Source: Alcanivorax sp. 24 (GTDB lineage Bacteria; Pseudomonadota; Gammaproteobacteria; Pseudomonadales; Alcanivoracaceae). From it: a stretch of 64,000 nucleotides of DNA. Below the pieces are notes generated by a model, which was not told the DNA's origin, searched no databases, and worked only from the letters and a program-made list of their open reading frames with translations. Location: contig NZ_SNUA01000002.1 in assembly GCF_004360225.1 (NCBI RefSeq), positions 62,001 to 126,000 on the forward strand. Direction: 5' to 3'. Below are positions 14,418-49,930 of this stretch, piece by piece; positions within the stretch are counted from its first letter, which is position 1; each line of letters begins with the position of its first letter. The position numbers and the translations under genes were made by a program.

Positions 14418-14483
14418 AAAGCGGCGCCGGACGCCAGACGCCGGACGCTAAAGTCAAAACCCGGGGCTGCGGGCGTTGCGGAA

Positions 14484-14631
14484 ATAAAAAATTGCCGGGA
14501 GCAATTTTTAACGTTGCTTGGTGACGGCCCGCAGGGTGACCGCCATGGACGGCGGTCATAAAAAATTGCCGGGAGCAATTTTTAACGTTGCTCGGCGACG
14601 GCCCGAAGGGTGACCGCCATGGACGGCGGTC
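14484..14631. repeat. 74-bp tandem duplication with terminator-like hairpins
   Basis: Two units (14484-14557, 14558-14631) differ at only a few bases. Each starts ATAAAAAATTGCC and ends in GACCGCC-ATGGAC-GGCGGTC, itself a 7-bp stem. Each also holds AAAAATTGC-CGGGA-GCAATTTTT, a stem with A and T runs on both sides, which can end transcription in both directions. They probably serve as terminators for the PhoH gene. The boundary at 14558 shows the sequence ATAAAAAA uninterrupted, equivalent to the insertion site used at 49478. Confidence 0.75.
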
Positions 14632-14638
14632 ATCAAAA

Positions 14639-15219
14639 GGTTCCTCGCGGTTTAGCGGGAAGGGTCGCTCGGGCGGGGGCTCCCGTATTGCCCGGTTACC
14701 TCGAAGACCTCCCTTCAGAGGTGGCTACAGCGCCGCTGTGGGAAGCTTGCTGGCAAGCGAATCGCCAACGGCTCAGGGCATTCGCGGCCAAGCGGAGCGC
14801 CGCCCGGGCCGCTTCCCACAGCGGCTTCGTAGCGGATCCGTGGGAGCCCAGCTTGCTGGCGAATCCGGCCCTCTGGTGTTGGGATATTCGCTTGCCGGCA
14901 AGCTTCCCACAGCGGCTTCGTGGCGGACCTGTGGGAGACCAGCTTGCTGGCGAATTCCGGCCCTTTGGTGTTGGGATATTCGCTTGCCAGCAAGCTTCCC
15001 ACAGCGGCTTCGTGGCGGACCCGTGGCAGGCCAGCTTGCTGGCGAGTTCCGGCCCTCTGGTGTTGGGATATTCGCTTGCCAGCAAGCTTCCCACAGCGGC
15101 TTCGTGGCAGATCTGTGGGAGACCAGCTTGCTGGCGAATATAGCGGCTTGGTAGCCCCTTCCGGTTACAGACCCGTGCCCATGATTGAAGCGCCGTGGCC
15201 TGCTAAACCGCGATGAACC
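14639..15219 (+). mobile_element. TIR element copy 1 (581 bp, non-coding)
   Basis: It begins GGTTCCTCGCGGTTTAGCGG and ends with the inverse, GCTAAACCGCGATGAACC, giving terminal inverted repeats of about 17 bp. The left part contains GGGTCGCTCGGGCGGGGGCT; the middle is a REP array (14731-15140); the right part contains GGTAGCCCCTTCC and CATGATTGAAGCGCCGTGG. It matches copies at 34716, 40783 and 49486. Flanking octamers are CATCAAAA and GTAAAAAA, so no exact target duplication remains. There is no transposase, so it must be moved in trans, if at all. Confidence 0.75.
14731..15140. repeat. REP array, 4 units of 91-92 bp
   Basis: Each unit has two opposed REP-like arms, CGCTTGCCAGCAAGCTTCCC and GTGGGAGACCAGCTTGCTGG, joined by CAGCGGCTTCGTGGCGGA and by a CCGGCCCTCTGGTGTTGGGA spacer. 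The GTGGGAG words start at 14840, 14931, 15023 (here GTGGCAG) and 15115. The period of 91-92 is not a multiple of three, which argues against a coding repeat. Confidence 0.85.
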
Positions 15220-15288
15220 GTAAAAAAGCGTTTTTAGTGCTTGCCAGGGCGTTGTGTCTGGTTTTGCATTGTCGGCGTCCGGCTCCAC

Positions 15289-16299
15289 TCAATCCTTCAA
15301 CACCTGCCCCAGCACCGACAAGCACGCTTCACTCTGATAGAAATCCCCCAGCGCCAGTTCCGCCCAGGCGCTCAATACGCCTTGCTCCTTCAGTACTTCC
15401 GCGCCACTCGCCAACGCTGGCGCCAGTGTGTCGCGTCGCGCCGCCGTATCGGTGCGCATGGCCTGGAGCAACGCGGGCAGACTTGATGCCATCAGGGTTT
15501 CGACCGCGGCGCGAATGCCTTCCATCACCAGATGCCGGCTGTAGTCCAGCGCGGCGATATGGTCGGATAGCAAGGTGCCCTGGCGCACCAGATCCGGCAG
15601 TGACTCATCGGGTACGTCACGCAGTAACGCCGCCGGTGTCATCGGGGCGATCCGTCCATAGGCATCGCGGGCCAGATCGGCGATGCGCTCGTTGCTTAAC
15701 TCCCGGTTCAACCACTGTTCACCGGTCCTGAGCGTGGCGCGGATGTTCTGTCGCAGGTAGGAACGAATTGGCTCTTCCAATCCGCCCATGGCCCGGCCCA
15801 CGCTTTTGCGGCCCAGTTTCATCATGCTGCTGACGCCGGGCAGTTTGGCCAGGGCGTTTTCTTCCAACAGAAAGTTCTTGATGCCGGTATAAAGCATTTC
15901 ACTGACCATCTGACTGATCAGCGGATGATTCAACACCGTATGAATGGTCCGCTCACGCAGACTTTGCAGTCGCAGCAGTTGTTCCAGCAGTGCCTCGAAC
16001 CGGGCTTCGTCGAGCAATTCGCCAAAGGTCACCGGATCCTGGCGGGCGTGGTTCAGCAGGGCGTGCGCCACGGATTCGATCACCGGCCGCAGCCCCTCGG
16101 CGGTGCTTACATGCGTCAGCCAATCGTCCACCACCTGGCTCAGTACTTCGGCATCCACCAAAGTCCCCAGCGGTTGCTCCGCCAGTATCGCCACGCCCTG
16201 ATCCAGCAGGTCGTGCCAGTAGTCCTCCGTGCACAGACGCTGGCAGGCGTGCTCAACGTGAGCTTGCTGCAAGGCTTCGGCCAGTTCTTTCCGCTTCAT
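15289..16299 (-). CDS. hypothetical helical protein
   Basis: This 336-residue protein is almost entirely predicted helical by eye, with no clear membrane segment or signal peptide and no motif I recognise. It is acidic to neutral with many Leu and Ala. ATG 16299 was preferred to the longer frame starting at 16521 because the extra 74 residues are His/Arg-rich, non-coding in character, and cross the ompW leader. The stop codon lies just beyond the right end of the outer repeat. It faces away from ompW, and no functional link is apparent. Confidence 0.7.
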   Translation of the reverse strand: MKRKELAEALQQAHVEHACQRLCTEDYWHDLLDQGVAILAEQPLGTLVDAEVLSQVVDDWLTHVSTAEGLRPVIESVAHALLNHARQDPVTFGELLDEARFEALLEQLLRLQSLRERTIHTVLNHPLISQMVSEMLYTGIKNFLLEENALAKLPGVSSMMKLGRKSVGRAMGGLEEPIRSYLRQNIRATLRTGEQWLNRELSNERIADLARDAYGRIAPMTPAALLRDVPDESLPDLVRQGTLLSDHIAALDYSRHLVMEGIRAAVETLMASSLPALLQAMRTDTAARRDTLAPALASGAEVLKEQGVLSAWAELALGDFYQSEACLSVLGQVLKD

Positions 16300-16535
16300 T
16301 GTTATCGGTTCCGCTGTGTCCGTTTTACTGAGTGTCCCGTCAGCCGCTGAATCCTTCTGGATCTTGATCCACGACAAGAGACCGCGCCCAACGGCCGGGT
16401 GTAATACCACGGAAGCCTGGCGATGCCGAGGGTTTGTGTCCAGGCCCGCGTGGTCGGGACGGCACCATCGTTGGTGTGGAATCGTCGATGTGGAATCGTC
16501 GGTGCGGACATGATGAGCCAAGAAGGGAGCTAAAC

Positions 16536-17210
16536 ATGCAACTATGGGGACGCGGCGCCTTGGCGCTGGCGCTAATCGGCAGTGTGGGTCTGGCCCAGGG
16601 GTATGAGGCCGGAGATATCTTGGTGCGCGCCGGCGCGGCCACGGTGTCGCCCCGCGTGGACAGTGACGCTTTTTCGGTGGCGCCGTTGACTGGCGCCAAG
16701 GTGGATGTGAACAACGACACTCAGTTCGGTTTCACCGTGGCCTACATGATCAACTCACGTTTCGGTGTCGAACTGCTGGCGGCCACGCCGTTCAAGCACG
16801 ACCTCTACGTGGAAGGCGCGGGGCTGGGCCGTACCGATATCGGCGATACCAAGCATCTGCCGCCAACCCTGATGGCGCAGTATTACCTGCCGGAACTGGG
16901 GCCGGTGCGTCCCTATGTGGGGCTCGGCGTCAATTACACCTATTTCTTCGACGAGAACATTCACGACGGCGTGGTCAGCCCGCTGATCGGTGGCGCCAAC
17001 GCCGATGTGTCTCTGTCCAATTCGGTGGGCTGGGCTGCTCAGGTGGGGGTGGATCTGGCCATGGGCGACACCTGGTTCGTCAACCTGTCCGCCTGGCGGG
17101 TGGACATCGATACCGAGGCCCGTCTCAAGGTGAATGGTTCCACCGTGGACAAAATCGATGTGGAGCTGGATCCGCTGGTGTGGATGGTCGGTATCGGCCG
17201 GGCGTTTTGA
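16536..17210 (+). CDS. ompW: OmpW-family outer membrane protein
   Basis: This 224-residue protein has a signal peptide (ALALALIGSVGLAQG) and the eight-stranded OmpW barrel features: GDILVRAGAATVSP at the mature start, FGVELLAATPFKHDL, KHLPPTLMAQYYLP, VRPYVGLGVNYTYFF, and a terminal Phe (VGIGRAF) for BAM recognition. OmpW forms a narrow hydrophobic channel in the outer membrane. AAGAAGGGAG precedes ATG 16536. A near-perfect direct repeat of GTGGAATCGTCG lies about 40-60 bases upstream. Confidence 0.93.
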   Translation: MQLWGRGALALALIGSVGLAQGYEAGDILVRAGAATVSPRVDSDAFSVAPLTGAKVDVNNDTQFGFTVAYMINSRFGVELLAATPFKHDLYVEGAGLGRTDIGDTKHLPPTLMAQYYLPELGPVRPYVGLGVNYTYFFDENIHDGVVSPLIGGANADVSLSNSVGWAAQVGVDLAMGDTWFVNLSAWRVDIDTEARLKVNGSTVDKIDVELDPLVWMVGIGRAF

Positions 17211-17224
17211 CCCTCCCTTGTGTT

Positions 17225-17245
17225 GCCGGGGCTGACTGCCCCGGC
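17225..17245. terminator. terminator between ompW and glpE
   Basis: GCCGGGGC-TGACT-GCCCCGGC is a perfect 8-bp stem with a 5-nt loop, placed between two convergent genes. There is no long T-run, so efficiency is uncertain. Confidence 0.6.
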
Positions 17246-17255
17246 CCTGCCTTGG

Positions 17256-17573
17256 TTAACTTTCCTCGACCTGGTCCGGGTAGGCCTGGCGCCAGTGTTC
17301 GAAGCCGCCGTCCAGACTCACTGCCCGGGTGAAGCCTTTTTCCGTCAAAAAGTCACAGGCCGATTGGCTGGAGTGACCGTGGTAACAATACACCACCAAG
17401 GCCTGGTCACGGGACGTGGTGGCCAGAAAATCGTCCAGACTGTCCTGAGTCAGCGGCACGGCGCCAGGAATACGCGCCATGGCGTGGCTACCCGGGTCCC
17501 GCACATCAATGAACAACGCCTCTCCGCTGTCCAGAGTTTCCCGGCCTTGTTCCGGTGAGATTCGCTGGGCCAT
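17256..17573 (-). CDS. glpE: thiosulfate sulfurtransferase (rhodanese) GlpE
   Basis: This 105-residue single-domain rhodanese has catalytic Cys63 in the loop CYHGHSSQ, the GlpE-type active site. FIDVRDPGSHAMARIPGA is the family N-terminal strand-helix. It transfers sulfane sulfur from thiosulfate to cyanide or thiol acceptors in the cytoplasm. It lies downstream of rhlB on the same strand with about 65 bases between them, so co-transcription is possible but a functional link is not obvious. Confidence 0.93.
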   Translation of the reverse strand: MAQRISPEQGRETLDSGEALFIDVRDPGSHAMARIPGAVPLTQDSLDDFLATTSRDQALVVYCYHGHSSQSACDFLTEKGFTRAVSLDGGFEHWRQAYPDQVEES

Positions 17574-17637
17574 GACGCCTCCGTCGTTGCGTTGAGTTGC
17601 GTTGAATTTCGTTTGCTTTTCCGCTTACCAGGAGCGC

Positions 17638-18870
17638 TCAGGCCTGGCGCCGGTCTTCCAGTAGTGGCGCTGGCGGATGTTCGCAGGGCAATTTCATGCC
17701 GATGGCTTCTTCCAGTTGCGGTAGCAGAAAGGCATCGTCCTCGCAGGCGAAACTGATCGACACACCGCTGGCGCCGGCACGGCCGGTACGGCCGATGCGG
17801 TGGACATAGTCCTCGGGATCTTCCGGCAGATTGAAGTTCACTACATGGGAGACGCCGTCAATGTGGATGCCCCGTCCGGCCACGTCGGTGGCGATCAGGA
17901 CACGGAGATCGCCGGCCCGGAAGCGTTCCAGTGTCTTCAAACGCTGATTCTGCGGCACATCACCGGAAATCATCGAGACCTTGAGCCCCTTCTTCATCAG
18001 GCGATCATTGAGCCGCCGGGTAATGTCCCGACGGTTGGCGAACACAATGACCTTTTCCATGTTCTCGCTGATGATCAGGTTGTACAGCAGATTGAATTTG
18101 TCTTCGGTGGCGGTGATGTAGACCTTTTGCTCCACGGTTTCCGTGGTCACCTGGGTCGGCTCGATCTCCACCGTTACCGGTTCCTCGGTCCAGCGCTGGG
18201 CCAGCGCCATGACGTCCTCATTGAAAGTGGCGGAAAACAACAGGGTCTGGCGGTAGCGGTTCGGCGGCGTCATTCGCACGATGCGTTTGACGTCTGGAAT
18301 GAAACCCATGTCCAGCATCCGGTCTGCTTCATCCAGTACCAGCGATTCCACCCGGTCCAGCCACAGGTCACGGCGCTTGGCGAAATCCAGCAGGCGGCCG
18401 GGCGTGGCCACGAGGACGTCAATCAGGCGGGTTTGCAGGCGTTCCTGTTGCCGGTTGAAGTTCATGCCACCGACCACGCTCATTACCTGCAGATCGGTAT
18501 GGCGGGCCAGTTGCAGCGCGTCTTTCTCGATCTGCATCGCCAGTTCCCGGGTTGGCGCCACGATCAGGGCGCGCGGTTCTCCGGCGTAGCGGGGCACGGT
18601 CAGCGGGTGCCGCAACAAGTCGTTGATCACGGTGATCAGAAACGCGGCGGTCTTGCCGGTGCCGGTCTGGGCCCGCCCGATGGCGTCCGCGCCGGCCAGA
18701 GTGTGGCGCAGGACTTCCGCCTGGATAGGCGTGCAATACTGGAAGCCCGCTTCGGCGATGCCGCGCATCAAAGGCAGTTCCAGATCGAAGTCATGGAAGC
18801 GGACCTCGCCCTCTTTCTCCGGTACCTGGAACTGGTCCAGATTCCAATCGCTTGTTTTGTCTTGTCGCAT
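17638..18870 (-). CDS. rhlB: ATP-dependent RNA helicase RhlB
   Basis: This 410-residue DEAD-box helicase has the Q motif region ([19 protein letters not shown] then CTPIQ), motif I AQTGTGKT, motif [15 protein letters not shown], motif III FSATF and motif [12 protein letters not shown]. The N-terminal lead and the ending ([20 protein letters not shown]) are those of RhlB rather than RhlE or SrmB. It unwinds RNA, typically for RNase E-dependent decay. The start may be ATG 18870 or the GTG just before it; neither has a strong ribosome binding site. Confidence 0.9.
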
Positions 18871-19005
18871 CACGTTGCTCGGATAGCTATCGCCGTCGGG
18901 TGGAAAGCACGGGCCATCGCGGAAGAAGCGGCCGGATCAGGGAAACATCGGCCTGTGCCCATGCAGTCATTCATAGTAGTGAAAGGGCCCCCCGGGGAAC
19001 AATCG

Positions 19006-19587
19006 TCAGTGGAATACCAGCAGGCGATTGTTGGCGGGCATGGCGTGGTCAGCCAATAAAACACGTCCGTGGCGTGCAAACAAGGCCGTCACCCACTCCT
19101 GGTCACGAATTCCCATGCTCAGGGCCTGGCTCTTGAGGTGCAGATCGAAGCGGCGATTGCTGTCGCTGGTGTAGTGCCCCTGGTAGTTGAACGGACCGTA
19201 GATGTAGACGCGCGCTTGCGGTGTCAGGTGCTGGCAAAGGCGCTGCACACATCTTTCCACCAAAGGCCGGGACAGGATGTGGAAGGTGTTGGCGGTATAG
19301 ATATGACGGAAGCGCTGTTCCGGCCAGCGGCCTTGTACTCGCAAGATCATGGCCGCTTGCAACGAAGGGGAGGGGTGGGCTTCCAGCCAGCGGTTCAGAC
19401 CGGTCATGTTCTCCGGTTGTTCACTGGGATGCCAGCGGACGTCCGGAAACCGGGGTGCCATCCAGACGGCGTGCTGGCCGGTGCCGGAGCCGATCTCCAG
19501 CAGGTCGCCGTGGTCCAGATAACCGGCCAGCACCTCGGCGATGGGGCCTTTGTTATTCTCGGCGGCTTGGGAAAACGGTCTTTGCAT
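19006..19587 (-). CDS. DUF938 SAM-dependent methyltransferase
   Basis: This 193-residue class I methyltransferase-like protein has SAM motif I LLEIGSGTGQHAVWMA (about 29-44), the acidic WHPSEQPEN segment, and IYTANTFHILS, typical of the DUF938 family (human METTL26-like). The C-terminal ANNRLLVFH is also conserved. The acceptor is unknown. The gene ends 135 bases upstream of the rhlB start, so it could be part of the same transcript. Confidence 0.88.
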   Translation of the reverse strand: MQRPFSQAAENNKGPIAEVLAGYLDHGDLLEIGSGTGQHAVWMAPRFPDVRWHPSEQPENMTGLNRWLEAHPSPSLQAAMILRVQGRWPEQRFRHIYTANTFHILSRPLVERCVQRLCQHLTPQARVYIYGPFNYQGHYTSDSNRRFDLHLKSQALSMGIRDQEWVTALFARHGRVLLADHAMPANNRLLVFH

Positions 19588-19669
19588 AGGGTGTCCGGTC
19601 GTGGTGGGATCGTCCCTGTCTTCGGGCTGCCGCCGCCACGACCGGTGTGGCGGGTAGGGCGAAAAGGCC

Positions 19670-20506
19670 CTAGCGCCGCATCAGTTTCTGGCCGGCCACC
19701 ATCAGACGCTGGTAGCTGGTCGGCAGCAGCCGCTGCATACCGTCAATAGCCAGGGCGTCGGAGCCGATCAATACCCGGCGTTTGTTTGCCCGCACGCCCT
19801 TGAGGATGGTTGTGGCCGCGTCCTCGGGAGTGGTGCGGAACAGTTTCTCGAAATCCCGGCGGGCCTTGTCGGCATCGGTGCCGGTGATCTTTTCCATGCC
19901 GCTGCCCATGCGGGCGTTGCGGGCGATATTGGTCTTGATGCCGCCCGGATGCACGGTGGTGCAGGAGACCCCGCCATTCTCGATTTCAAGCTCCTGGCGC
20001 AGGGACTCGGTGAAGCCCCGAACCGCGAACTTGGCGGCGTTGTAGGCGGACTGGGTCGGTACACTGATCAAGCCGAAAACGCTGGAAACGTTGACGATAT
20101 GCCCTTCCCCAGCGGCCTTCATGTGCGGCAGGAAGGCCTTGGTGCCATACACCACGCCCCAGAAATTGATGCCCATGAGCCATTCGAAGTCCTCATAGCT
20201 CATTTCATCCACGGACGCGCCCAGAGCGACGCCTGCATTATTGATGACCAGATGAACGGCGTCAAAGTGGGCCATCACGTCGTCGGCAAAGGCATAGACC
20301 GCGCCCCGGTCGGCGACGTCGAACACTTTGGAGATGACGCGCTCCGAATCCAGATCAAGCGCTTCGACGGTCTCCCTCAGGCCCGCCTCGTTGACGTCGG
20401 AGAGCGCCAGTTTGGCGCCCTGGGCGGCCAGTTGCCCGGCCAATGCGCGGCCGATGCCGGAGCCGGCGCCGGTGATTACCGCGACCTTGTCCTTGAAACT
20501 TTTCAT
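19670..20506 (-). CDS. short-chain dehydrogenase/reductase
   Basis: This 278-residue SDR has the NAD(P)-binding TGAGSGIG motif (about 12-19), NNAG (about 89-92), catalytic Ser in NVSS and YNAAK (Tyr and Lys). The Asp of LSDVN at the end of strand 2 favours NAD over NADP. The substrate is unknown; the C-terminal extension (ILKGVRANKRRVLIGSDALA) is common in hydrocarbon degraders' acetoin/alcohol dehydrogenase-like SDRs. ATG 20506 was preferred to the start five codons upstream because GGGGA lies at the right distance from it. Confidence 0.9.
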   Translation of the reverse strand: MKSFKDKVAVITGAGSGIGRALAGQLAAQGAKLALSDVNEAGLRETVEALDLDSERVISKVFDVADRGAVYAFADDVMAHFDAVHLVINNAGVALGASVDEMSYEDFEWLMGINFWGVVYGTKAFLPHMKAAGEGHIVNVSSVFGLISVPTQSAYNAAKFAVRGFTESLRQELEIENGGVSCTTVHPGGIKTNIARNARMGSGMEKITGTDADKARRDFEKLFRTTPEDAATTILKGVRANKRRVLIGSDALAIDGMQRLLPTSYQRLMVAGQKLMRR

Positions 20507-20884
20507 GTTGGAAATCCCCATGACTATGTGGAGCGGAGTGTACCGGCATCGACCATGCAGAACGGGCCAATTGCCGGCGAGGGACTGGCTGTGACGCCGC
20601 TGGTGGCGGGCCCTGATGTCGATTGGTGGGAGTTGGGCTGGGGCTGATTCCGCGGCCGAATATGACAGGTGGATTCTGGAATTGTTACGCTTTTGTCAAA
20701 GTGCCGCCACGGTCGACGTTTTTCGGCGGAATTTCCGCTATTACTGCGGCGCAATGTTAAAAGTGGCGGTCCAGGTGCAAGTAAATGGATATTGGGCGTC
20801 GCATTTGGGGCGAAGAACGCTAGAGGATAAATTGTAACCAGTGTTAACCTTCGCGTTTCGTACGAATAAAAGAAGCCGATCCGC
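20507..20884. other. divergent regulatory region SDR / sialidase-like
   Basis: About 380 bases without a gene, AT-richer than the surroundings near 20690-20880. It holds TTCGTACGAA (20857-20866), a perfect 10-bp palindrome just upstream of the sialidase-like start. Promoters for both divergent genes are expected here, but no convincing -35/-10 pair was found. Confidence 0.5.
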
Positions 20885-22165
20885 ATGGCCTTGAGAAGAT
20901 GGATGCATTGGGGGATGGGCGCCCTGCTGGTGGTAGCGTATCTGATGGGCTTGCCCGGGCATGCGCTGCATTCCGACCCGCCTTTTATAGCCGAACACGT
21001 TCCCGCCCACGATGTGATCGATGGGCAGTGGCAGATGCGTTTCGCCTCGGATGCGGAAACCGCGCTGGTCCACGCCGCTTCCATGGTGGAGCTGCCGGAT
21101 GGCCGCCTGCGAGCTTTCTGGTTCGCCGGTAGCCGGGAGGGCGCCCAGGATGTGGGTATTCACTCCTCGGTGTTCGATCCCGCTGCCGGTGCCTGGAGTG
21201 AAGAAACCACCGTGGTTAGCCGGGATCAGATCAGCCGGGGTTGGGGCCGCCATGTCCGCAAGCTGGGTAACGCCGTGCCGGTTCTCGACGATAACGGCCG
21301 TATGCGGCTGTTCGTGGTGGCGGTGAGCTTTGGCGGCTGGGCCGCCAGCCGGATGGTGGTGCTGGAATCCTGGGACCAGGGGGCATCCTGGCGATTCGAC
21401 CGGGCCCTGACCACCTCGCCATTCCTGAACATCAGCACGCTGGTGAAGACGCCGCCCTTGCGGTTCGCCGATGGTTCGGTGGGATTACCGGTCTACCATG
21501 AGATGATCGGCAAGTTCGGCGAGATGCTGCGTCTGGACGAAGACAACCGGATTCTGGACAAATCCCGTATCGGCCATGGCCGCAAGGCGATTCAGCCGCT
21601 GGTCCTGGTGGACAGCCCGCACCGGGCCACGGCGTTTCTCCGCAATGAGAGCGACGATCACCCGGGCATGCTCTACCGCAGTGATACCTACGACGGCGGT
21701 GCCGAATGGACACCGCTGGTCTCCTCCGGACTGCCCAATCCCAGCGCCGCTGTTGGCGGTGTGGCATTGAGCGAGGGGCATTGGTTGTTGGTGGCCAACT
21801 GTAATTCGGTGGAACGGGATGATCTGTGCATGCGTGAAACCCGCGACAGCGGCCGTACCTGGACCGACCGCATCTATTTCCACAACCGTACTTCCTGGCG
21901 TGGCGGGGACCTGGAAGAAAACCGTTTCCTCAACATGATCGGCGAGGAATTGGAAGGCACTTTCGGCGTTATCCGCAATCAGCCTTACCTGCGGCGGGTG
22001 GAACACAACAAGTGCTTCCCGCGCGGTTGTGAATTCCAATACGACTATCCCTACGTCATTCAAGCCAGCAATGGTGATCTCCATGTGCTTTATACCTGGA
22101 ATAAATCCGCCATCCGCCATGCCTGGTTGCCGGCCAGACAGCCGGGTCAAGGGGGGAGAGGGTGA
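20885..22165 (+). CDS. sialidase-family (BNR/Asp-box) protein
   Basis: This 426-residue protein has a signal peptide or N-terminal anchor (MGALLVVAYLMGLPGHA) and three Asp-box-like motifs (SWDQGASW, DTYDGGAEW, TRDSGRTW) spaced along a six-bladed propeller. It matches the sialidase/BNR-repeat superfamily. Arg residues at the start of blades (FAGSREGAQDVG, FLRNESDDHPG) fit the family, but the full sialidase Arg triad and Tyr/Glu pair cannot be verified by eye, so glycosidase activity is only likely. Its stop overlaps the next gene's start (TGATG), so the two are translationally coupled. Confidence 0.8.
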   Translation: MALRRWMHWGMGALLVVAYLMGLPGHALHSDPPFIAEHVPAHDVIDGQWQMRFASDAETALVHAASMVELPDGRLRAFWFAGSREGAQDVGIHSSVFDPAAGAWSEETTVVSRDQISRGWGRHVRKLGNAVPVLDDNGRMRLFVVAVSFGGWAASRMVVLESWDQGASWRFDRALTTSPFLNISTLVKTPPLRFADGSVGLPVYHEMIGKFGEMLRLDEDNRILDKSRIGHGRKAIQPLVLVDSPHRATAFLRNESDDHPGMLYRSDTYDGGAEWTPLVSSGLPNPSAAVGGVALSEGHWLLVANCNSVERDDLCMRETRDSGRTWTDRIYFHNRTSWRGGDLEENRFLNMIGEELEGTFGVIRNQPYLRRVEHNKCFPRGCEFQYDYPYVIQASNGDLHVLYTWNKSAIRHAWLPARQPGQGGRG

Positions 22166-22794: not shown

Positions 22795-22846
22795 CGCCAC
22801 AGCCGTGGCCAGTCTATTGGTCCTGGAGGCATGAACTCGCGCTGTA

Positions 22847-22916
22847 TTCGCTGGCAAGCCAGCTTCCCACGGAAGGGAACGACGAAGCCGCCGTGGGAAG
22901 CTGGCTTGCCAGCGAA
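22847..22916. repeat. perfect 26-bp inverted REP pair
   Basis: The arm TTCGCTGGCAAGCCAGCTTC plus CCACGG (22847-22872) is repeated in perfect inverse at 22891-22916, with an 18-base loop. It uses the same REP sequence as the large arrays. Lying between convergent genes, it probably also works as a bidirectional terminator. Confidence 0.85.
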
Positions 22917-34663: not shown

Positions 34664-34715
34664 CAGGAAACGGTATTACCCCATCAACGTCGCTGTGGGA
34701 GCTTCGAACAAAAAA

Positions 34716-35618
34716 GGTTCCTCGCGGTTTAGCGGGAAGGGTCGCTCCGGTGGGGGCTCCCGTATTGCCCGGTTACCTCGAAGATCTCCATTCAGAGGTG
34801 GCTACAGCGCCGCTGTGGGAAGCGGCCCGGGCGGCGCTCCGCTTGGCCGCGAAGGCCCTGGACCGTTGGCGATTCGCTTGCCAGCAAGCTTCCCACAGTG
34901 GCTTCGTAGCGGATCCGTGGGAGCCCAGCTTGCTGGCGAATTCCGACACCTTTGGTGTTGGGATATTCGCTTGCCAGCAAGCTTCCCACGGCGGCTTCGT
35001 GGCGGATCCGTGGGAGGCCAGCTTGCTAGCGAATTCCGGCCCTCTGGTGTTGGGATACTCGCTTGCCAGCAAGCTTCCCACAGCGGCTTGGTGGCAGATC
35101 TGTGGGAGACCAGCTTGCTGGCGAATTCCGGCTCTCTGGTGTTGGGATATTCGCTTGCCGGCAAGCTTCCCACAGCGGCTTCGTGGCGGATCCGTGGGAG
35201 CCCCGCTTGCTGGCGAATTCCGGCCCTCTGGTGTTGGGATATTCGCTTGCCAGCAAGCTTCCCACGGCGGCTTCGTGGCATGATCCGTGGGAGACCCGCT
35301 TGCTGGCGAATGCGGCCCTCTGCTCTGGTGTTGGGATATTCGCTTGCCAGCAAGCTTCCCACGGCGGCTTCGTGGCAGATCCGTGGGAGACCCGCTTGCT
35401 GGCGAATTCCGGCCCTTTGGTGTTGGGATATTCGCTTGCCAGCAAGCTTCCCACAGCGGCTTCGTGGCGGATCCGTGGGAGGCCAGCTTGCTGGCGAATG
35501 CGGCCTCTGGTGTGGGGTATTCGCTTGCGGACACGCTCCCAGAGCGGCTTGGTAGCCCCTTCCGTTACAGACCCGTGCCCATGATTGAAGCGCCGTGGCC
35601 CTCAAGCCGCGATGAACC
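34716..35618 (+). mobile_element. TIR element copy 2 (903 bp, non-coding)
   Basis: It begins GGTTCCTCGCGGTTTAGCGG and ends AAGCCGCGATGAACC, and is flanked by the exact octamer ACAAAAAA on both sides (34708-34715 and 35619-35626), as expected for a target-site duplication. The left part (GGGTCGCTCCGGTGGGGGCT) and right part (GGTAGCCCCTTCCGTTACAG, CATGATTGAAGCGCCGTGG) match the other copies. The middle is the longest REP array in the window. The right end abuts the T-tract of the coxC terminator. Confidence 0.8.
34809..35500. repeat. REP array, 7 units of 92-96 bp
   Basis: GTGGGAG words begin at 34917, 35010, 35102, 35194, 35287, 35383 and 35475. Each unit contains facing arms CGCTTGCCAGCAAGCTTCCC and CCAGCTTGCTGGCGAATTCC with TTCGTGGCGGATCC between them. 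Units differ by a few substitutions and small insertions; for example one carries an extra CTCTG near 35321. The array is the same unit as at 14731-15140 but longer. Confidence 0.88.
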
Positions 35619-35626
35619 ACAAAAAA

Positions 35627-41246: not shown

Positions 41247-41254
41247 AAAAAAAA

Positions 41255-41551: not shown

Positions 41552-41638
41552 GGGAACTCCTGGTTTTTCGTGTCGGTGGTTCCAAAGTCGCACTCTCAAT
41601 GTGACGCCGAAGAAGAGCAGGGGTTCCCCGTCGTTTCG

Positions 41639-42121: not shown

Positions 42122-42270
42122 GGTTGCGTCCTCTTCATGGATTCTGTGCAATGTCCGTTTCTTCAATATAGAGCCGGGTGATGTTCGGGAAAGTGGGCCA
42201 GAGCCCGGGATTACGAGATTTTATCTTTGCCGCGGTGTTATCACGCCGTTTGATATGACGGGAGAGGAAT

Positions 42271-42999: not shown

Positions 43000-43002
43000 T
43001 CC

Positions 43003-43070
43003 GCTGCCAAGGCAGCTTCCCACAGCGGCTCCGTAGTGATACCGCTGTGGGAGCGAGCTTGCTCGCGAAT
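43003..43070. repeat. REP pair between convergent hydrolase genes
   Basis: CAGCTTCCCACAGCGG faces CCGCTGTGGGAGCGAGCTTG and CTCGCGAAT. It is the same REP family as the arrays, in solitary form, located just after the dienelactone hydrolase stop. Confidence 0.75.
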
Positions 43071-43087
43071 CAGTGGGGCAGCAGTGG

Positions 43088-43738
43088 TCAGTCGAGCACG
43101 CTATGCAGGAATGCGGCGATGTCCTGGATCTCCTCCAGACACACCGCGTGCTCCATGGGGTAGGTTTTGTAGTCCGTGGAGTAACCTTTGGCGGTCAGTG
43201 TTTCCGCCGCCCGGCGGCCGCCTTCCTCGGGCACCATGGGATCGAAAGTACCGTGGGCGATGAAGATCGGCAGGGCCTGATTGGCATCGCTGCATTGGAT
43301 GCTGTCGGCGGTGGCGAAGTAAGTGGACAAAGCCATCAGGCCGGCCAGCCGTGCCGGATGGCGCAGAGCCACCTCATAGGCCACCGCGCCGCCCTGGGAA
43401 AAGCCGGCCACAACAATGCGTTCGGCGGGAATGCCGCGCTCGATCTCACGTTCGATCAGGGCGTCGATCCGGGCCGCCGAGCGGCGGATGCCGTCCTCGT
43501 CGATCGGCCCGCCGCCGCCCAGACTGATGATGTCGTACCAGGCCGGCATGACCATGCCGCCGTTGACGGTCACCGGAATTTGCGGTGCGTGCGGAAACAC
43601 GAAACGGGTGCTCTTGCGTGCCAGCTCCGGTACCACCGGCTCGAAGTCATGGCCGCTGGCACCCAGGCCGTGCAACCAGATCACGCTGGTTTCGGCGGGC
43701 TGCGGCGGTTCGATTTCCACACAGGGCAGATAGCTCAT
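43088..43738 (-). CDS. carboxylesterase/phospholipase-type alpha/beta hydrolase
   Basis: This 216-residue hydrolase has nucleophile S114 in GFSQGG, Asp in HGTFDPMVP and His in YPMEHAVCLEE. VIWLHGLGASGHDF supplies the oxyanion region. It matches the EstB/YtpA-like short carboxylesterases. ATG 43738 has GGAGTG upstream; the frame extends ten codons further to a TTG but without a better ribosome binding site. It lies 16 bases after the rapA stop, so it is probably co-transcribed with rapA. Confidence 0.9.
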   Translation of the reverse strand: MSYLPCVEIEPPQPAETSVIWLHGLGASGHDFEPVVPELARKSTRFVFPHAPQIPVTVNGGMVMPAWYDIISLGGGGPIDEDGIRRSAARIDALIEREIERGIPAERIVVAGFSQGGAVAYEVALRHPARLAGLMALSTYFATADSIQCSDANQALPIFIAHGTFDPMVPEEGGRRAAETLTAKGYSTDYKTYPMEHAVCLEEIQDIAAFLHSVLD

Positions 43739-43754
43739 TCCGGCACTCCTTAAC

Positions 43755-46628
43755 TCAGTTTCCGGCAACGATCACACGGACCGCTTCCAATTGCACCCGC
43801 GCCTGGTCCAGATAAGCGGCCAGGGCCCGGGTCTGCGTTTCCAGGAACTCGATCTCTTCGTCACGCACTGCCGGGTTCTTCTCGCGCAGTGCTTTGAGCC
43901 GGGCCAGCTCCGCTTGCTGATGGCGGTTCATCGCTTCGCGGGCGCTATTGATATGCTCTTCCGCTGCTTCCTTGGCCCGGGTTTCATTGGCGCGCAGCAG
44001 TTTTTCCAGTAACGCTTTCTGGCTGCCCACCACCTTGCGGGCCAGCGGTTTTTCCAGTTTGTGGCATTGCCGGCACAGACCCGGGAAGTCGATGGCCTGG
44101 GACAGATCGCGCCCCTTGGGATCCAGCAGATGGCGGATCGTCACCGTCGGCAGGAAGCGGTCCAGCTGCAGATGCCGGGGGGCGCTGCACGACACCGTAT
44201 AGATGGTTTCCACCAGCAGGGTGCCGGCGGGGATTTTCGGATTCTTGAGCAGCGCCACCGAGGCTTTGCCCCGGGTTTCGGTAAGCAGGCGATCCAGCAC
44301 CCCGGTGACCATCGGGTGCTCCCAGGTCAGAAACTGCATGTCATCCCGGGCGATGGCGGTGCCGCGCTGGTCGGTGACGGTGATGCCTTCTTCCGGCAGG
44401 CCGGGGAAAGGTTCGCGCAAATGCGGTGCCGGCTTCAGTACCCAGGCGTGTTCGGAATGATCTTCCTGGTCGACGCCGTAGTGTTCGAACACCTCGCCAA
44501 GGAACGCCATGGGGGTTTGCTCGTCTTCCCGGGCCAGTTGATCGCGCAAGCCGTCGGCCTGTTCTCGGTCGCAGGACGCCATTTCCAGCAGGCGGTCCCG
44601 GCCTTCCTCCAGACGCTGGCGCAGCTCATCGGTGACCTCCCGGGTCCGTGCCAACAGGGAGGAGACCTTGGCATCGTCGGCCGGGGCACGCAGGGCCTGT
44701 TCCAATGCTTCCCCGCAGCGCTGGCCTATCTCGTGACCGGCGGGATTGGTGTGCTCGAACGCCCCCATGCCTTCGTGGTACCAACGGAACAGGACTTGCT
44801 GTGCGTGGGCCTGAAAATGCGGCACGTGAATCTGAATGGTGTCGGTCTGGCCGATGCGGTCCAGGCGACCGATGCGTTGCTCCAGCAAGTCCGGATTGCG
44901 CGGCAGATCGAGCAGCACCAGATGATGGGCGAACTGGAAGTTACGGCCTTCGGAGCCGATCTCGGAGCAGATCAGGGCCTGGGCGCCGTCCACGTCATCG
45001 GCGAAAAAGGCGGCGGCGCGATCCCGCTCGATCAGGTCCATATCTTCATGGAACACCGCCAGATTCAGTCCCAGCTTGTAGCCGCAGTGGGCGTGCAGGT
45101 CGATGGCGGTATCGCGGTGCGCGCAGATCACCAGCACTTTTTCACCACGATGCTGCTTGAGGAACTGCTCCAGCCAGTCGGTGCGCGGGTCCTCGGCGCA
45201 CCAGCGATCGTCCCGGTAGGCGGTCTCCGGATACAGAGCCAGCTCCAGATCCTCGTCCTCGTCAATGCGATAGGCATCTGGCAAGGGCAGCGGATAACCC
45301 TGAACCCGCCGCTCAGGGAAGCCGGCCACATTGTGCCGGGTGTTGCGGAACATCACCCGGCCAGGCCCGAAGCGGTCCAGCAACTCGCCAAGAATGGCGT
45401 CACGGCGGCTTTCGTCGATGTCTTCGCCGGGCAGCCAGTGGGCGGCACTTTCGCGCAGCGACGCCGACCAGCTGGGTTCGTCATGCAGGGCGCCAGCCAG
45501 TTCCGCAACCTGCCGATACTGCTGCTGTTCCTCGATGAAGGCGTCCAGGCTCGGGTAGCGGTCCGGGTCCAGCAGGCGCAGGCGGGCAAAGTGGCTTTCC
45601 AGCCCCAACTGCTCTGGTGTGGCGGTGAGCAACAGCAGACCGCGGGCCTGACGTGACACCTGTTCCACCCGGCTATAGGCGGTGGAGGGCTGTTCCGGGC
45701 TCCAGGCCAGGTGGTGGGCCTCGTCCACCACCAGCAGGTCCCATTCCGCTTCGGCCAGCAAGTCGATATCGCAGCCTTCCAGGAAAGTGGTGCTGCACAG
45801 GACCAGTTGTTCGGACAGAAAAGGATTGTCCTGGGTGGCCGATTCCTGACCGGTTTCCTCGGCGATGATATCCGCCAGCATGTTCTTGATGCTGGCGGCG
45901 CTGGAGGCACCGAGCGCCTCCAGGCGGCTTTCATCGAAAATGCTGAAGCGCAGATTGAAGCGCCGTGCCATTTCCACGAACCATTGATGCACCAGGGCAT
46001 CGGGCACCACCACCAGCACTCGCTGCGCGCGCCCGGTATAGAGTTGCTGATGCAGAATCAGGCCCGCCTCGATGGTTTTTCCCAACCCGACCTCATCGGC
46101 CAGCAACACCCGCGGTGCGTAGCGGCGCGCCACCTGCTCGGCGATATACAGCTGATGACCGATCAGATCGATACGGGCGCCACGCAGCCCCTGCAGGGGA
46201 GACCGTTCGCTCTGGGCCTTGGCCTGCAGCGCCTTGATGCGCAGTTCGAACCAGCGATTGGAAGAGAGCTGGTTGGCCAGCAGGCGTTCCTGAGCACCAT
46301 TGAGGGCCAATTGATGGCCGAGATGGGACTCGGGTACCGGCTGCACATTGTCCGGCTGATCCACCGGATGGGCGTGATAGACCAGCAGCCCGTTGAGGTC
46401 ATTGACCGCCTGAACTTTCAGTTCCAGGCCGTCGTCGGTGGTCAGGGTCTCGCCCACATCGAAGGTGACCCGGGACAGGGGCGCGTTGTTTTTGGCGTAG
46501 GTCCGCTCTTCCTCCACCGCCGGATAGCTCACGGTGACCAGGCGGTAGTCCACCTCCTTGATCACGCCGAGGCCCAGCTCGGTTTCGGATTCACTTAGCC
46601 AGCGTTGCCCGGGAACAAATTCGGTCAT
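43755..46628 (-). CDS. rapA: RNA polymerase-associated ATPase RapA
   Basis: This 957-residue Swi2/Snf2-type ATPase has N-terminal Tudor-like domains (about 1-110). The first RecA lobe has Walker A ADEVGLGKTIEAG (about 178-190) and VVDEAHHLAW; the second lobe has GSEGRNFQFAHHLVLLDLPRNPDLLEQRIGRLDRIGQ (motifs V and VI). A long C-terminal domain follows. RapA recycles RNA polymerase by remodelling post-termination complexes. Length and layout match E. coli RapA (968 residues). Confidence 0.96.
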   Translation of the reverse strand: MTEFVPGQRWLSESETELGLGVIKEVDYRLVTVSYPAVEEERTYAKNNAPLSRVTFDVGETLTTDDGLELKVQAVNDLNGLLVYHAHPVDQPDNVQPVPESHLGHQLALNGAQERLLANQLSSNRWFELRIKALQAKAQSERSPLQGLRGARIDLIGHQLYIAEQVARRYAPRVLLADEVGLGKTIEAGLILHQQLYTGRAQRVLVVVPDALVHQWFVEMARRFNLRFSIFDESRLEALGASSAASIKNMLADIIAEETGQESATQDNPFLSEQLVLCSTTFLEGCDIDLLAEAEWDLLVVDEAHHLAWSPEQPSTAYSRVEQVSRQARGLLLLTATPEQLGLESHFARLRLLDPDRYPSLDAFIEEQQQYRQVAELAGALHDEPSWSASLRESAAHWLPGEDIDESRRDAILGELLDRFGPGRVMFRNTRHNVAGFPERRVQGYPLPLPDAYRIDEDEDLELALYPETAYRDDRWCAEDPRTDWLEQFLKQHRGEKVLVICAHRDTAIDLHAHCGYKLGLNLAVFHEDMDLIERDRAAAFFADDVDGAQALICSEIGSEGRNFQFAHHLVLLDLPRNPDLLEQRIGRLDRIGQTDTIQIHVPHFQAHAQQVLFRWYHEGMGAFEHTNPAGHEIGQRCGEALEQALRAPADDAKVSSLLARTREVTDELRQRLEEGRDRLLEMASCDREQADGLRDQLAREDEQTPMAFLGEVFEHYGVDQEDHSEHAWVLKPAPHLREPFPGLPEEGITVTDQRGTAIARDDMQFLTWEHPMVTGVLDRLLTETRGKASVALLKNPKIPAGTLLVETIYTVSCSAPRHLQLDRFLPTVTIRHLLDPKGRDLSQAIDFPGLCRQCHKLEKPLARKVVGSQKALLEKLLRANETRAKEAAEEHINSAREAMNRHQQAELARLKALREKNPAVRDEEIEFLETQTRALAAYLDQARVQLEAVRVIVAGN

Positions 46629-46715
46629 GGATGTGCGATCGCCTGGATGATTGTGGGGGCGGGCGATTATACGGGTTTGTGGCGCCGTCTTCGATGCGTG
46701 TCGGTGAAAAACGGA

Positions 46716-47510
46716 TCAACCGCCGCCGTTCCCGCCCGCCTGTGTCCCGAACCACTGTGCCGTCGCCTCATCGGCGGGGAAATATTGCTCTATACGTAAT
46801 TCTTCCATCACCACGTCCACGGCGGTGCCGAAACTGGCCAGGGTGGAGAAGGCGTTCAGACGTTGCCCGCCGATATTGAGCACCAGTGTCAGCATCGGGT
46901 CCGTACTCACCGGCATGTCCACTGGAATCCGGCTGAGATCGGCCAGCGTCGCCAGACGACGGTGCAGGCGGTGCAGCACCGGGTCCGGTCGCGCATGCAG
47001 ATCGCGGCGCAGATGGCGCAGCAGAAACGACGCCACCACCGGCCAGTTCTCGATGAACGGGCGGAAGCCGTCGGGATGGAACGCCAGTTCCATGATGTTG
47101 GTGGTCTCCGGCAACGGCCCGCGCTCCGCCACCATGGCCGCGACGATGCGGTGCTGGGCCGGATTGGCCAGCAGCAGATTCCAATGCGCGTCCAGCACCA
47201 CCGCCGGATAGGGCAGGTGGTTCTCCAGCATCAGATTCAGCGCCTGCCGTACCGGAGCCATGGCGGGCTCGTTCAGGCGGGTTTCGCCAAACGCCGGCGG
47301 ATGGCCGGCGGCGGTGAGCAGGTAATTGGTTTCCCTGAGGCTCAGATCCAGCGCCCCGGCCAGCCGTTTGAGCATGTCCGCGCTGGGGCGGGAGCGGCCA
47401 TTTTCAACAAAGCTCAGATGGCGACTGGAAACGCCGGCGTTATTGGCCAGTTCCAACTGGCTGATGCGCCGGGTGCGGCGCCAGTCCGCCAGTATCGTAC
47501 CTGCCTGCAT
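46716..47510 (-). CDS. XRE-family regulator with MmyB-like ligand domain
   Basis: This 264-residue protein has an N-terminal helix-turn-helix (about 8-62; RRISQLELANNAGVSSRHLSFVENGRSRPS) and a C-terminal MmyB-like/MLTR ligand-binding domain (AMAPVRQALNLMLENHLPYPAVVLDAHWNLLLANPA). This family may bind fatty acids or small aromatics; the effector here is unknown. ATG 47510 has GGAGGTAATC upstream, and that ribosome binding site lies inside a perfect palindrome (47514-47530), which suggests autorepression. It is divergent from the four-helix membrane protein at 47591. Confidence 0.88.
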   Translation of the reverse strand: MQAGTILADWRRTRRISQLELANNAGVSSRHLSFVENGRSRPSADMLKRLAGALDLSLRETNYLLTAAGHPPAFGETRLNEPAMAPVRQALNLMLENHLPYPAVVLDAHWNLLLANPAQHRIVAAMVAERGPLPETTNIMELAFHPDGFRPFIENWPVVASFLLRHLRRDLHARPDPVLHRLHRRLATLADLSRIPVDMPVSTDPMLTLVLNIGGQRLNAFSTLASFGTAVDVVMEELRIEQYFPADEATAQWFGTQAGGNGGG

Positions 47511-47513
47511 GTG

Positions 47514-47543
47514 ATTACCTCCGAGGTAATTGTTTTGATTACC
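47514..47543. promoter_or_regulatory. palindromic operator in divergent promoter
   Basis: ATTACCTC-C-GAGGTAAT (47514-47530) is a perfect 17-base palindrome. A further half-site GATTACC lies at 47537-47543 and GTGATTACC overlaps the left arm. It covers the ribosome binding site of the XRE regulator and lies 60-77 bases before the divergent gene, so one protein could control both. Confidence 0.65.
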
Positions 47544-47590
47544 CCTGGCGGGGATTCTGACTCTATCAGAAACCACGAAGGAGAAGGATC

Positions 47591-47989
47591 ATGCCCTGGC
47601 AATCCTTGAAATCCGCACTGCTGTTCAATGCTATTGTCTGCGCCGTGTTCGGCGTGCCCCTGGTCACCGCCGGCGCCTTCTTCGCCGGTCTGGCCGGTGC
47701 CCATGCCGGTGCCATCCCGGTGTGGCTGGCCACCGCCGCCGGTGCCGCGCTGCTGGTGCTGGCGATGGATCTGGCCTGGGTCGCCACCCGCCGTCCGATC
47801 CCGCGTCTGCTGGCACGCCTGCTGACCCTGGCGGACGCCGCTTTTGTCGTCGCCATGCCAGTGGTGATGCTGGTGGCTTCGCCCTGGCTCTCCAATATCG
47901 GTCAATTGCTGTTGGCGGACCTGGTGCTGATCACCGCGTTCTGCGTGTGGTGCCAGTGGCGGGGCCTGCGGCAGCCGGCGCATGCCTGA
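47591..47989 (+). CDS. four-helix membrane protein, putative regulator target
   Basis: This 132-residue protein has four hydrophobic segments (about 8-33, 40-62, 75-95 and 100-120) and short polar ends. I do not recognise a family. AGGAGAAGGATC gives a strong ribosome binding site. It is divergent from the XRE regulator with a shared operator, so it is the likely regulated gene; its substrate or role is not visible. Confidence 0.78.
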   Translation: MPWQSLKSALLFNAIVCAVFGVPLVTAGAFFAGLAGAHAGAIPVWLATAAGAALLVLAMDLAWVATRRPIPRLLARLLTLADAAFVVAMPVVMLVASPWLSNIGQLLLADLVLITAFCVWCQWRGLRQPAHA

Positions 47990-48048
47990 TGGGAGCGGCG
48001 GTGGCTGAACGCCACCGCCCGCTGTTTGGTGGAAGGGAACAGACCGCT

Positions 48049-48190
48049 TACACGCAACACGCCGGCACGCTAACTCGCCAGTCGTGGCTCGTGAGCGCAG
48101 GGCCACCCTATTGCTCCCGTAATGGGAACTACACAGCCGTTGTGGGAAGCGAGCTTGCTCGCGAATCGGCGTGCCAGCGTGTTGCGTGTA
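48049..48190. mobile_element. 142-bp inverted-repeat element
   Basis: Terminal arms of 22 bases (48049-48070 and 48169-48190) match at 21 positions; each contains TACACGCAACACGC and GGCACGC. The interior carries a REP arm (TGTGGGAAGCGAGCTTGCTC). There is no coding capacity. It looks like a small MITE-type element distinct from the GGTTCATCGCGG elements. Confidence 0.65.
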
Positions 48191-48330
48191 GGCGTGACAG
48201 CGAATTGTAGGACAGCGATGGTTACCGGTGGCGGTGTTTCTGCTGCTGGAACTGGTAATGACGGCAATGCTGGCGGCTGTCGTGTGGTGACCGCTATGCT
48301 GAAGGGCTCTTAACCTCACGAGGCCCGGTC
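48191..48330 (+). other. gap before zinc-ribbon gene
   Basis: 140 bases between the inverted-repeat element and the zinc-ribbon gene (the whole gap 47990-48330 has no gene). TATGCT at about 48294 could be a -10. Nothing else is seen. Confidence 0.3.
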
Positions 48331-48513
48331 ATGGCCGATATCCTGCCCTTCAAGAAACCGGCGAAAAAGAAAGCCGCCAACAAAAGTCTGTGCCGCCATG
48401 GCTTCCATAAATGGGTGGTGGCGAAGGACACCACTTTCGATTCCAAGCAGGGACGTCTGGTCACCCTTTACCGGTGCCAGCGTTGTGGTAAGACAAAAAC
48501 CGAAGCGCGCTGA
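48331..48513 (+). CDS. small zinc-ribbon-like protein
   Basis: This 60-residue basic protein starts MADILPFKKPAKKKA and has CRHGFHKW (Cys, His) followed by LYRCQRCGKTKTEA (CxxC). These four ligands could bind one zinc. It resembles a conserved small protein of Pseudomonas and relatives with the same MADILPFK start. CGAGGC precedes the ATG. Nucleic-acid or ribosome binding is plausible from charge and size but not shown. It lies 32 bases before the hydrolase gene. Confidence 0.75.
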   Translation: MADILPFKKPAKKKAANKSLCRHGFHKWVVAKDTTFDSKQGRLVTLYRCQRCGKTKTEAR

Positions 48514-48545
48514 GGAGGCCCCCTCCCGGCGTGGGGAGAAAGGGG

Positions 48546-49421
48546 ATGAGCGAAGCACAATGGGTACGGATCGATAACGGGAAGGGCTATTCGGTGCCGG
48601 TCACCTGGGTGTCCGGTGGCGGCCCGGTCTTTCTGGTCATGGGTGCCCTCGGCGTGGCCGCGCCCTTCTACGACAAACTGGTGGCGGAGCTGGCCGCGCA
48701 GGGCTGGTCGGTGGCGCTGATGGAGCAGCGGGGCCTGGGCAGCAGTGCTCTGCGTCCCTCGAGACGGCATAACTGGAGCTTTCGTGACGTCGTCGAGGAC
48801 GACGTGCCGGCGGTGCTGGAGTGGATCGCCAGGGAGGCGACGCGGCAGCCGGTTTACCTGTTTGGCCACAGCCTTGGCGGCCACTATGCGGCGATGTGCG
48901 CGGGTCTCTACCCGCAGCGTTTCGAGGGTATCGTCATGTGCGCCTGCGGCAGCCCCTGGATCACCGCTTATCAGGAAGCGGACCGCCGCCGGGTGCAACG
49001 GCTCACCCGCCTGATTCCGTTGTGCCACTTGCTGTTTGGCTATTACCCCGGTGACCGCCTCGGTTTCGGGGGGCGGGAGGCGCGTGGCGTGATGAGTGAT
49101 TGGCGTCACCTGGCACTGACTAATCGTTATCGGCTGGGGGCCGATGACCGCCGGGTGGATCAGTCGCTGGCGGATTACACCGGCCCCGCCTTGATGCTGC
49201 GTATGGAGAACGACCCTTTTGCGTCCGCCATCGCGGTGGATTCGGTGTTACGGCGTTTTCAGCGTCATCGTCCGGAGGAACAGGTGCTCAGCGCCGGGGA
49301 ACTGAACGACAAGGCGGACCATTTTCGCTGGGCAAGGCGGCCGGCGGCGGTGGTGGCGCGTCTGGCGCGGTGGCTGGAGGAGGAAGGTGTCGGACGTCGG
49401 ACGCTCGACGTCGAACGCTAA
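48546..49421 (+). CDS. alpha/beta hydrolase
   Basis: This 291-residue protein has VFLVMGALGVAAPFYDKLV (oxyanion region), nucleophile Ser in LFGHSLGGHYAAM and a distal Asp in RMENDPFAS. The catalytic His is probably in KADHFRWARRP. The substrate is unknown. ATG 48546 has GGGGAGA upstream. The last residues (RRTLDVER) and the stop are encoded by the left end of the repeat block at 49391, so the natural C-terminus may have been altered by the repeat. Confidence 0.85.
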   Translation: MSEAQWVRIDNGKGYSVPVTWVSGGGPVFLVMGALGVAAPFYDKLVAELAAQGWSVALMEQRGLGSSALRPSRRHNWSFRDVVEDDVPAVLEWIAREATRQPVYLFGHSLGGHYAAMCAGLYPQRFEGIVMCACGSPWITAYQEADRRRVQRLTRLIPLCHLLFGYYPGDRLGFGGREARGVMSDWRHLALTNRYRLGADDRRVDQSLADYTGPALMLRMENDPFASAIAVDSVLRRFQRHRPEEQVLSAGELNDKADHFRWARRPAAVVARLARWLEEEGVGRRTLDVER

Positions 49422-49930
49422 AGTCAAAACCCGGGGCCGCGCGACGGCCCGAAGGGTGACCGCCATGGACGGCGCTCATAAAAAAGGTTCATCGCGGTTT
49501 AGAAGGCCACGGCGCTTCAATCATGGGCGCGGGTCTGTAACGGAAGGGGCTACCAGCCGCTCTATTCGCCAGCAAGCGGGTCGCCCACAGATCATGCCAC
49601 GAAGCCGCTGTGGGAAGCGGCCTTGGCCGCGAATGCCCTGGGTCGTTGGCGATTCGCTTGCGAGCAAGCTTCCCACAGCGGCTTCGTAGCATGATCTGAA
49701 TGGATGTCTTCGAGGTAACCGAGCAATAGGGGGCTCCTTTGCTCTCCTGGAAAGGTTTGTCGTTGTTGGCGTCCGCAACGCGGTGGTTCACTCGAATCGG
49801 GGCTGCACGGAGCCCCCGCCGGAGCGACCCTTCCCGCCAAACCGCGATGAACCATAAAAAAGCGTTGCTTAGTGCCTGCCAGGGCGTTGGGTCTGGTTTT
49901 GCATTACCGGCGTCCGGCGTCGCGCGCCAA
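49391..49930. repeat. outer repeat enclosing element copy 4
   Basis: It carries the same flanks as 14426-15285, in the same orientation: CGCTAAAGTCAAAACCCGGGG and GACGGCCCGAAGGGTGACCG on the left; TTAGTGC, TGCCAGGGCGTTG, GGTTTTGCATT and CGGCGTCCGG on the right. It lacks the 74-bp tandem unit. Bases 49854-50034 beyond the inner element hold only the right flank and the leader of the TPR gene. Confidence 0.65.
49486..49853 (-). mobile_element. TIR element copy 4 (368 bp), inverted
   Basis: It begins GGTTCATCGCGGTTTAG and ends CAAACCGCGATGAACC, flanked by the exact octamer ATAAAAAA on both sides (49478-49485 and 49854-49861). Read on the minus strand it aligns with copies 1-3: GGGTCGCTCCGGCGGGGGCT at 49810-49830, a REP pair in the middle, then GGTAGCCCCTTCCGTTACAG and CATGATTGAAGCGCCGTGG. 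Relative to the shared outer flanks it is inverted compared with copy 1. Confidence 0.8.

Follow-up and report, generated by a model that had tools for sequence, protein, structure and literature searches.

Members of the ISL3 family of insertion sequences duplicate 8 bp of target DNA, and group IIC introns insert just after intrinsic terminators. The MITE described here shares with the ISL3 family (PF01610, NF033550) the possession of terminal inverted repeats (TIRs), A/T-rich duplicates of 8 bp and ends homologous to those of family members in sister species, but differs in having a core in which no transposase gene was found and which is filled with tandem REP-bearing units. Group IIC introns are retroelements, in contrast to this MITE, a DNA transposon with TIRs. 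Among bacterial MITEs, a described element comparable to the present one is MITEAba12, which according to the available part of its description (PMC6382973) is likewise non-coding, has TIRs in common with a full-length insertion sequence, generates target duplicates and is inferred to move in trans; its duplicates are of 9 bp, whereas those of the present MITE are of 8 bp, and the latter is further distinguished by a very variable length (205-1134 bp) and a preference for terminator T-tracts. The intergenic repeats of Pseudomonas fluorescens, some of which are called MITE-like in the portion of the source available (PMC2718517), are also inverted-repeat, intergenic and of high copy number, a likeness in general description. 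ISL3 elements have been reported, in the accessible part of one study, to be over-represented between genes of one direction (PMC9208149), and intergenic TAACTGA heptamers of Beggiatoaceae are the subject of another report (PMC4679880). Among the papers listed, a literature search found nothing on ISL3 MITEs that prefer terminators or on MITEs of Alcanivorax, a weak negative with most subscription journals outside its coverage.

The window considered here is the whole stretch of 64,000 nucleotides that was analysed from Alcanivorax sp. 24 (contig NZ_SNUA01000002.1, positions 62,001 to 126,000). It contains four copies of the MITE (copies 1 to 4, at loci labelled L022, L023, L024 and L025, respectively), two of which, copies 1 and 4, lie in opposite orientations within a dispersed outer repeat. 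These two copies are very probably separate insertions of a target-selective ISL3-type MITE into the tract of that repeat.

The paired loci

The features of loci 1 and 4 are as follows.

14426..14638, forward strand: outer-repeat left arm of locus 1, with heptamer units at 14429-14449 followed by two 74-bp units
14631..14638, forward strand: 8 bp to the left of copy 1, CATCAAAA, an imperfect target duplicate (4/8 match to the right side)
14639..15219, forward strand: copy 1, ISL3-type MITE of 581 bp, A end left and B end right (from TIRs, end types and core tree)
15220..15227, forward strand: 8 bp to the right of copy 1, GTAAAAAA
15228..15283, forward strand: outer-repeat right arm of locus 1, ending in one GGCGTCC heptamer
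49391..49485, forward strand: outer-repeat left arm of locus 4, with one shortened unit of the 74-bp type
49478..49485, forward strand: left target duplicate of copy 4, ATAAAAAA (8/8; L025)
49486..49853, reverse strand: copy 4, MITE of 368 bp in reversed position, B end left and A end right, of the M-module subtype (from TIRs, end types and core tree)
49854..49861, forward strand: right target duplicate of copy 4, ATAAAAAA (8/8; L025)
49862..49922, forward strand: outer-repeat right arm of locus 4, ending in a GGCGTCC heptamer

The TIRs are paired at 14639-14655/15203-15219 in copy 1 and at 49486-49502/49837-49853 in copy 4, and over the whole window the TIR pattern, with up to three mismatches allowed, has seven matches against 0.15 expected. 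The outer left arms are identical at 82 of 91 ungapped columns (90%), the alignment containing 50 gap columns because the 74-bp unit is present twice at copy 1 and once, in shortened form, at copy 4, and the right arms are identical at 58 of 63 ungapped columns (92%); the outer sequences stand in the same order at both loci, as the first-pass annotation had stated. In the 200 bp past the arms, the best local scores between the two loci were 19 and 17, compared with a median of 18 for random pairs and 24 for the 95th of 100, so that likeness beyond the arms is at chance level. Alignment of copy 1 with copy 4 gave a score of 221 for the reverse complement and 76 for the forward strand, showing that the core is inverted. 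Taken together, the TIRs and the arm and core alignments confirm the same outer repeat, the same insertion base and the opposite core orientation at both loci, and they rule out, with the TIR counts, a chance similarity of the two blocks. Orientation apart, the two cores are not the same sequence: they differ in lineage and in subtype (581 and 368 bp), and a module (marker M) is present in copy 4 and absent from copy 1, with one stretch shared between copy 1 and reversed copy 4 at 127 of 132 ungapped columns.

A search of 14300-15400 against Rfam gave no match at the gathering score. In three sister genomes both the outer repeat and the core are absent from loci 1 and 4. At locus 1, a short heptamer-like hairpin is found in three sisters (L114-L116, near 2120-2160) where the host has the outer repeat; in G008 it reads GCCGGACGTCTG..CAGACGTCCGGC.

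Identity of the core

The core is a non-coding, non-autonomous MITE with ends that, on sequence homology, derive from an ISL3-family insertion sequence. In a comparison set of 13 genomes of a genus inferred to be Alloalcanivorax, nine long matches to ISL3 transposase, at 52% identity or above, were present in 5 of the 13, and seven further short pieces (23-54 amino acids, 63-75%) occurred in G003 and G004; the G006 transposase used as query matched PF01610 at 9e-62 and NF033550 at 4e-102. A clear TIR pair was found at 4 of the 18 loci scanned for ends (L125, L126, L144, L149), delimiting elements of 1362-1503 bp, and the 8-bp A/T duplicates of these four elements are perfect in three and match at 7/8 positions in the fourth. 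TIR-like ends are present on both sides at L124, L127 and L136 and at one end only at L123 and L152, while GGTTCATCGCG lies at one end at least in all nine long ISL3 loci of the sister species. Between the A end of copy 4 and the L149 element at its 5' end, 5 differences were counted by eye over 42 positions.

The one long frame scanned from each of copies 1, 2 and 4 has no Pfam match, and no ISL3 transposase was found in the 99 contigs of the host. The sole host match to the ISL3 query covers query residues 234-354 and is probably a desaturase, since this stretch corresponds to the NCBIfam DesA/ISL3 tail domain. Movement of the MITE is presumably effected in trans by an ISL3 transposase. The first guess at a transposase family, PF12762 (IS1595), was rejected on the basis of a match in only 1 of the 13 genus genomes; the PF12762 locus (L120) adjoins an ISL3 element that proved relevant. 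How long a core is (205-1134 bp) depends largely on how many REP-bearing units it contains, spaced about 92 bp apart, as seen for copies 1 and 2, and these units fill the MITE cores at 14870-15139 and 34857-35591. Their component sequences resemble Pseudomonas REPs.

Copies outside the outer repeat

The remaining two copies in the window, together with the target duplicates of copy 2, are as follows.

34708..34715, forward strand: left target duplicate of copy 2, ACAAAAAA (8/8; L023)
34716..35618, forward strand: copy 2, the same MITE without outer repeat, in a terminator tract, with seven REP-bearing units about 92 bp apart
35619..35626, forward strand: right target duplicate of copy 2, ACAAAAAA
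40783..41246, forward strand: copy 3, the same MITE without outer repeat, of the same M-module subtype as copy 4

The site of copy 2 is empty in the sister genome G008 (L155), where the sequence is uninterrupted and a single ACAAAAAA precedes the hairpin GCCCCGGC..GCCGGGGC. In sisters G006 and G007, the terminator of copy 2 has a different TIR-like end (..CATGAACC) right before the tract, which suggests that one base may have been struck repeatedly. Copy 3 is absent from the three sister genomes examined (L157-L159).

Choice of target

Target duplicates of the MITE are perfect at 8 bp for 8 of 31 TIR pairs, one of which (L047:844) is a spurious second pairing; among the same pairs, a perfect duplicate of 7 bp occurs once and duplicates of 5, 6, 9, 10 or 11 bp do not occur. 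An A or T run of at least four adjoins 29 of 34 TIR ends, compared with 3.2% of 20,000 random 9-mers, the 34 being ends and not insertions, with up to two mismatches and not recognised as lying beside an outer repeat. The remaining five include two left ends of composites that escaped recognition as such (L042, L065) and one match, L020, that is probably due to chance. Just before the run, 13 of 17 T-side ends have a hairpin of -10 kcal/mol or below, versus 2 of 12 A-side ends. The MITE prefers A/T tracts, and in many cases the tract is that of an intrinsic terminator, which provides it with a neat niche of low harm.

Both orientations are seen outside the outer repeats, where, as read from the element maps with the T run as reference, nine typed copies lead with the B end and four with the A end (L058 and L089 were classified solely from their A end, and L017 and L056 were excluded). 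Within outer repeats, perfect ATAAAAAA duplicates accompany both orientations, that of copy 1 at L071 and L072 and that of copy 4 at L015 and L025.

Distribution in the host genome

The TIR has 111 matches in the host genome at up to three mismatches, against 6 for a reversed control pattern. The 87 stretches analysed around TIR and outer-repeat matches were taken from the matches listed, with several three-mismatch places outside the set, and include all 46 outer-repeat right ends. Fourteen of these right ends are empty (no TIR within 60 bp) and 32 are filled. The filled copies are oriented as copy 1 (AB) in 23 cases, some typed by the right end alone, and as copy 4 (BA) in six (L015, L018, L019, L025, L042, L054); in L040 and L079 the sequence is of B type at both sides, and one copy carries another core subfamily (L032). 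The two B-B cores are likely to have arisen when copies rearranged with one another. When the 32 right ends were typed by themselves in a second motif test, 18 came out as B, 6 as A and 8 as undecided; the six A ends belong to the same six BA copies, and of the undecided ends seven have a B marker in their element maps and the other is L032. A further three left halves that are filled (L073, L075, L083) are without a right end in their stretch and fall outside the 46. Several composites of core and outer repeat lie at contig ends, and end overlaps of 127 bases are found in two pairs.

Core lineages and the origin of the two orientations

The first-pass annotation had offered two explanations of the pattern, a segment that flips in place or two independent insertions at exactly the same base. 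The second is favoured by the A/T-tract preference, by the presence of both orientations outside the repeat and by the different lineages of the cores. BLAST comparison placed copy 3 as the nearest core to copy 4, followed by L042 and L070. The core tree includes 22 of 30 complete cores, eight having been left out for unclear end type, and 4 of the 6 reversed cores, with 10 of its 19 inner branches open. In this tree, copy 4 is sister to L070, which lies outside any outer repeat (100/99), and both fall within a group with copy 3 (98/88), while copy 1 belongs to an AB group of ten (90/87, not a starred branch). A single clade for the four reversed cores was rejected (p-AU 3.5e-7), and L072 and L082, both AB, are split from the other ten forward cores by 100/100 branches. 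The starred branches force at least two label changes per orientation, which are read as at least two insertions of each; recombination of REP-rich cores may occur. Copies 1 and 4 are considered separate insertions because copy 4 groups with a core outside the outer repeat and because one reversed clade is rejected.

In the proposed sequence of events, an ISL3 transposase would place the MITE, facing either way, in an A/T tract of 8 bp (for example ATAAAAAA or TTTTTTAT), which in many cases is the T-tract of an intrinsic terminator, and these 8 bp would be duplicated by the insertion. As the outer repeat carries an A/T tract mid-repeat, the same base would be struck repeatedly, in both orientations and by different MITE lineages. 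Some composites of repeat and MITE may later have been copied elsewhere as a unit, which may partly explain the dominance of one orientation. The order of these events and the travel of composites with the outer repeat are presumed.

Three other explanations may be considered. It is improbable that the orientations arose not by transposition but by exchange between copies of the MITE, either homologous recombination or gene conversion, at the REP arrays that they share, although for some copies this is compatible with separate insertion and its standing is not exclusive of that reading. In its favour, long similar stretches are common to REP-rich cores and B-B cores occur, but the 8-bp duplicates, the empty site and the tract preference would be left without explanation.

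It is quite improbable that a single ancestral composite for each orientation gave rise, by copying of the outer repeat, to all the others without any later insertion of the MITE. Copying of composites does appear to have occurred. A stretch of 422 bp that runs through the MITE and up to the outer-repeat right end is 99.5% identical between L093 and L095b, and L059, truncated at a contig start, agrees fully with both over 320 bp. The flanks compared were 39 on the left and 46 on the right (60-460 bp past the right end), with the low-complexity filter on, and matches between any two of them did not exceed 40 bp. A similar left deletion is also common to L011, L014, L041 and L093. Some composites of core and outer repeat were probably copied as a unit, a reading favoured because of the near-identity of L093, L095b and L059 with unrelated flanks, with gene conversion as an alternative. 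Descent of every composite from two ancestors is nevertheless rejected on the present tree, in which a single reversed clade is not upheld and 100/100 branches separate forward L072 and L082 from the ten other forward cores.

Inversion of the core in place between its TIRs, by a recombinase, a transposase or homologous recombination after one ancestral insertion, is very improbable: the shared insertion base, the intact ATAAAAAA duplicates on both sides in both orientations and the internal rearrangement evident in the two B-B cores would accord with it, but the core tree pairs copy 4 with L070, which lies in no outer repeat, and not with any forward core, the subtype of copy 4 differs from that of copy 1 by module and length, and both orientations are found at ordinary terminator tracts too. 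The target duplicates are compatible with inversion as well as with insertion and do not separate the two.

Separate insertion explains the apparent flip with no inversion system, a target-selective transposon and a dispersed target being sufficient to give both orientations at the same base. The earlier view that such behaviour would be unusual for a non-coding element does not hold, as it is to be expected of a MITE moved by a target-selective transposase. The pattern is striking at first sight and its cause, a target-selective ISL3-type MITE, is ordinary.

The outer repeat

The less ordinary part of the pattern is the outer repeat, which merits a study of its own. It is a dispersed sequence of about 100 bp with an A/T tract mid-repeat, and its two ends are inverted heptamer arrays, (CGGACGC)n on the left and (GGCGTCC)n on the right (14426-14449, 15274-15283, 49391-49415 and 49910-49922; also L036, L078 and L094). 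By a lenient count, the 46 copies have 1-17 heptamer units on the left and 0-22 on the right, seven copies being without a readable left side. Empty copies have a varied A-rich tract at the position of the core, for example ATAAATAA or ATAAAAAA. At up to three mismatches, the host has 46 right ends and G008 a single one, and the 11 other genus genomes have none; one exact match was found in the named genome collection, which may leave out the window's own genome, in Alloalcanivorax xenomutans JC109, and the genus assignment goes back to this match.

One TIR of the MITE has been lost in several composites. A tentative reading, with rather less than an even chance of being correct, is that the outer repeat may be a separate non-coding mobile unit of about 100 bp with inverted 7-bp arrays, bursting in one Alloalcanivorax species with the ISL3 MITE as its passenger, including MITEs that have lost one TIR. 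With a carrier repeat bounded by heptamers, one may ask how so short a non-coding unit can spread within one species.

A role of the outer repeat as a conserved RNA is not supported, the z-scores of the three copies folded, of 13 aligned, being -1.06, -0.62 and -2.37. Heptamer hairpins of the form GCCGGACG..CGTCCGGC do not constitute a clear genus-wide family, since each of the 13 genus genomes has 0-8 of them per strand, compared with 0-5 matches to the control pattern. Within the outer repeat, a 74-bp unit with the palindrome AAAAATTGCCGGGAGCAATTTTT is found in tandem between ATAAAAAA-like tracts (14478-14625; L035, L078). This unit consists of 66 bp and an 8-bp tract, and is perhaps itself an old insertion.
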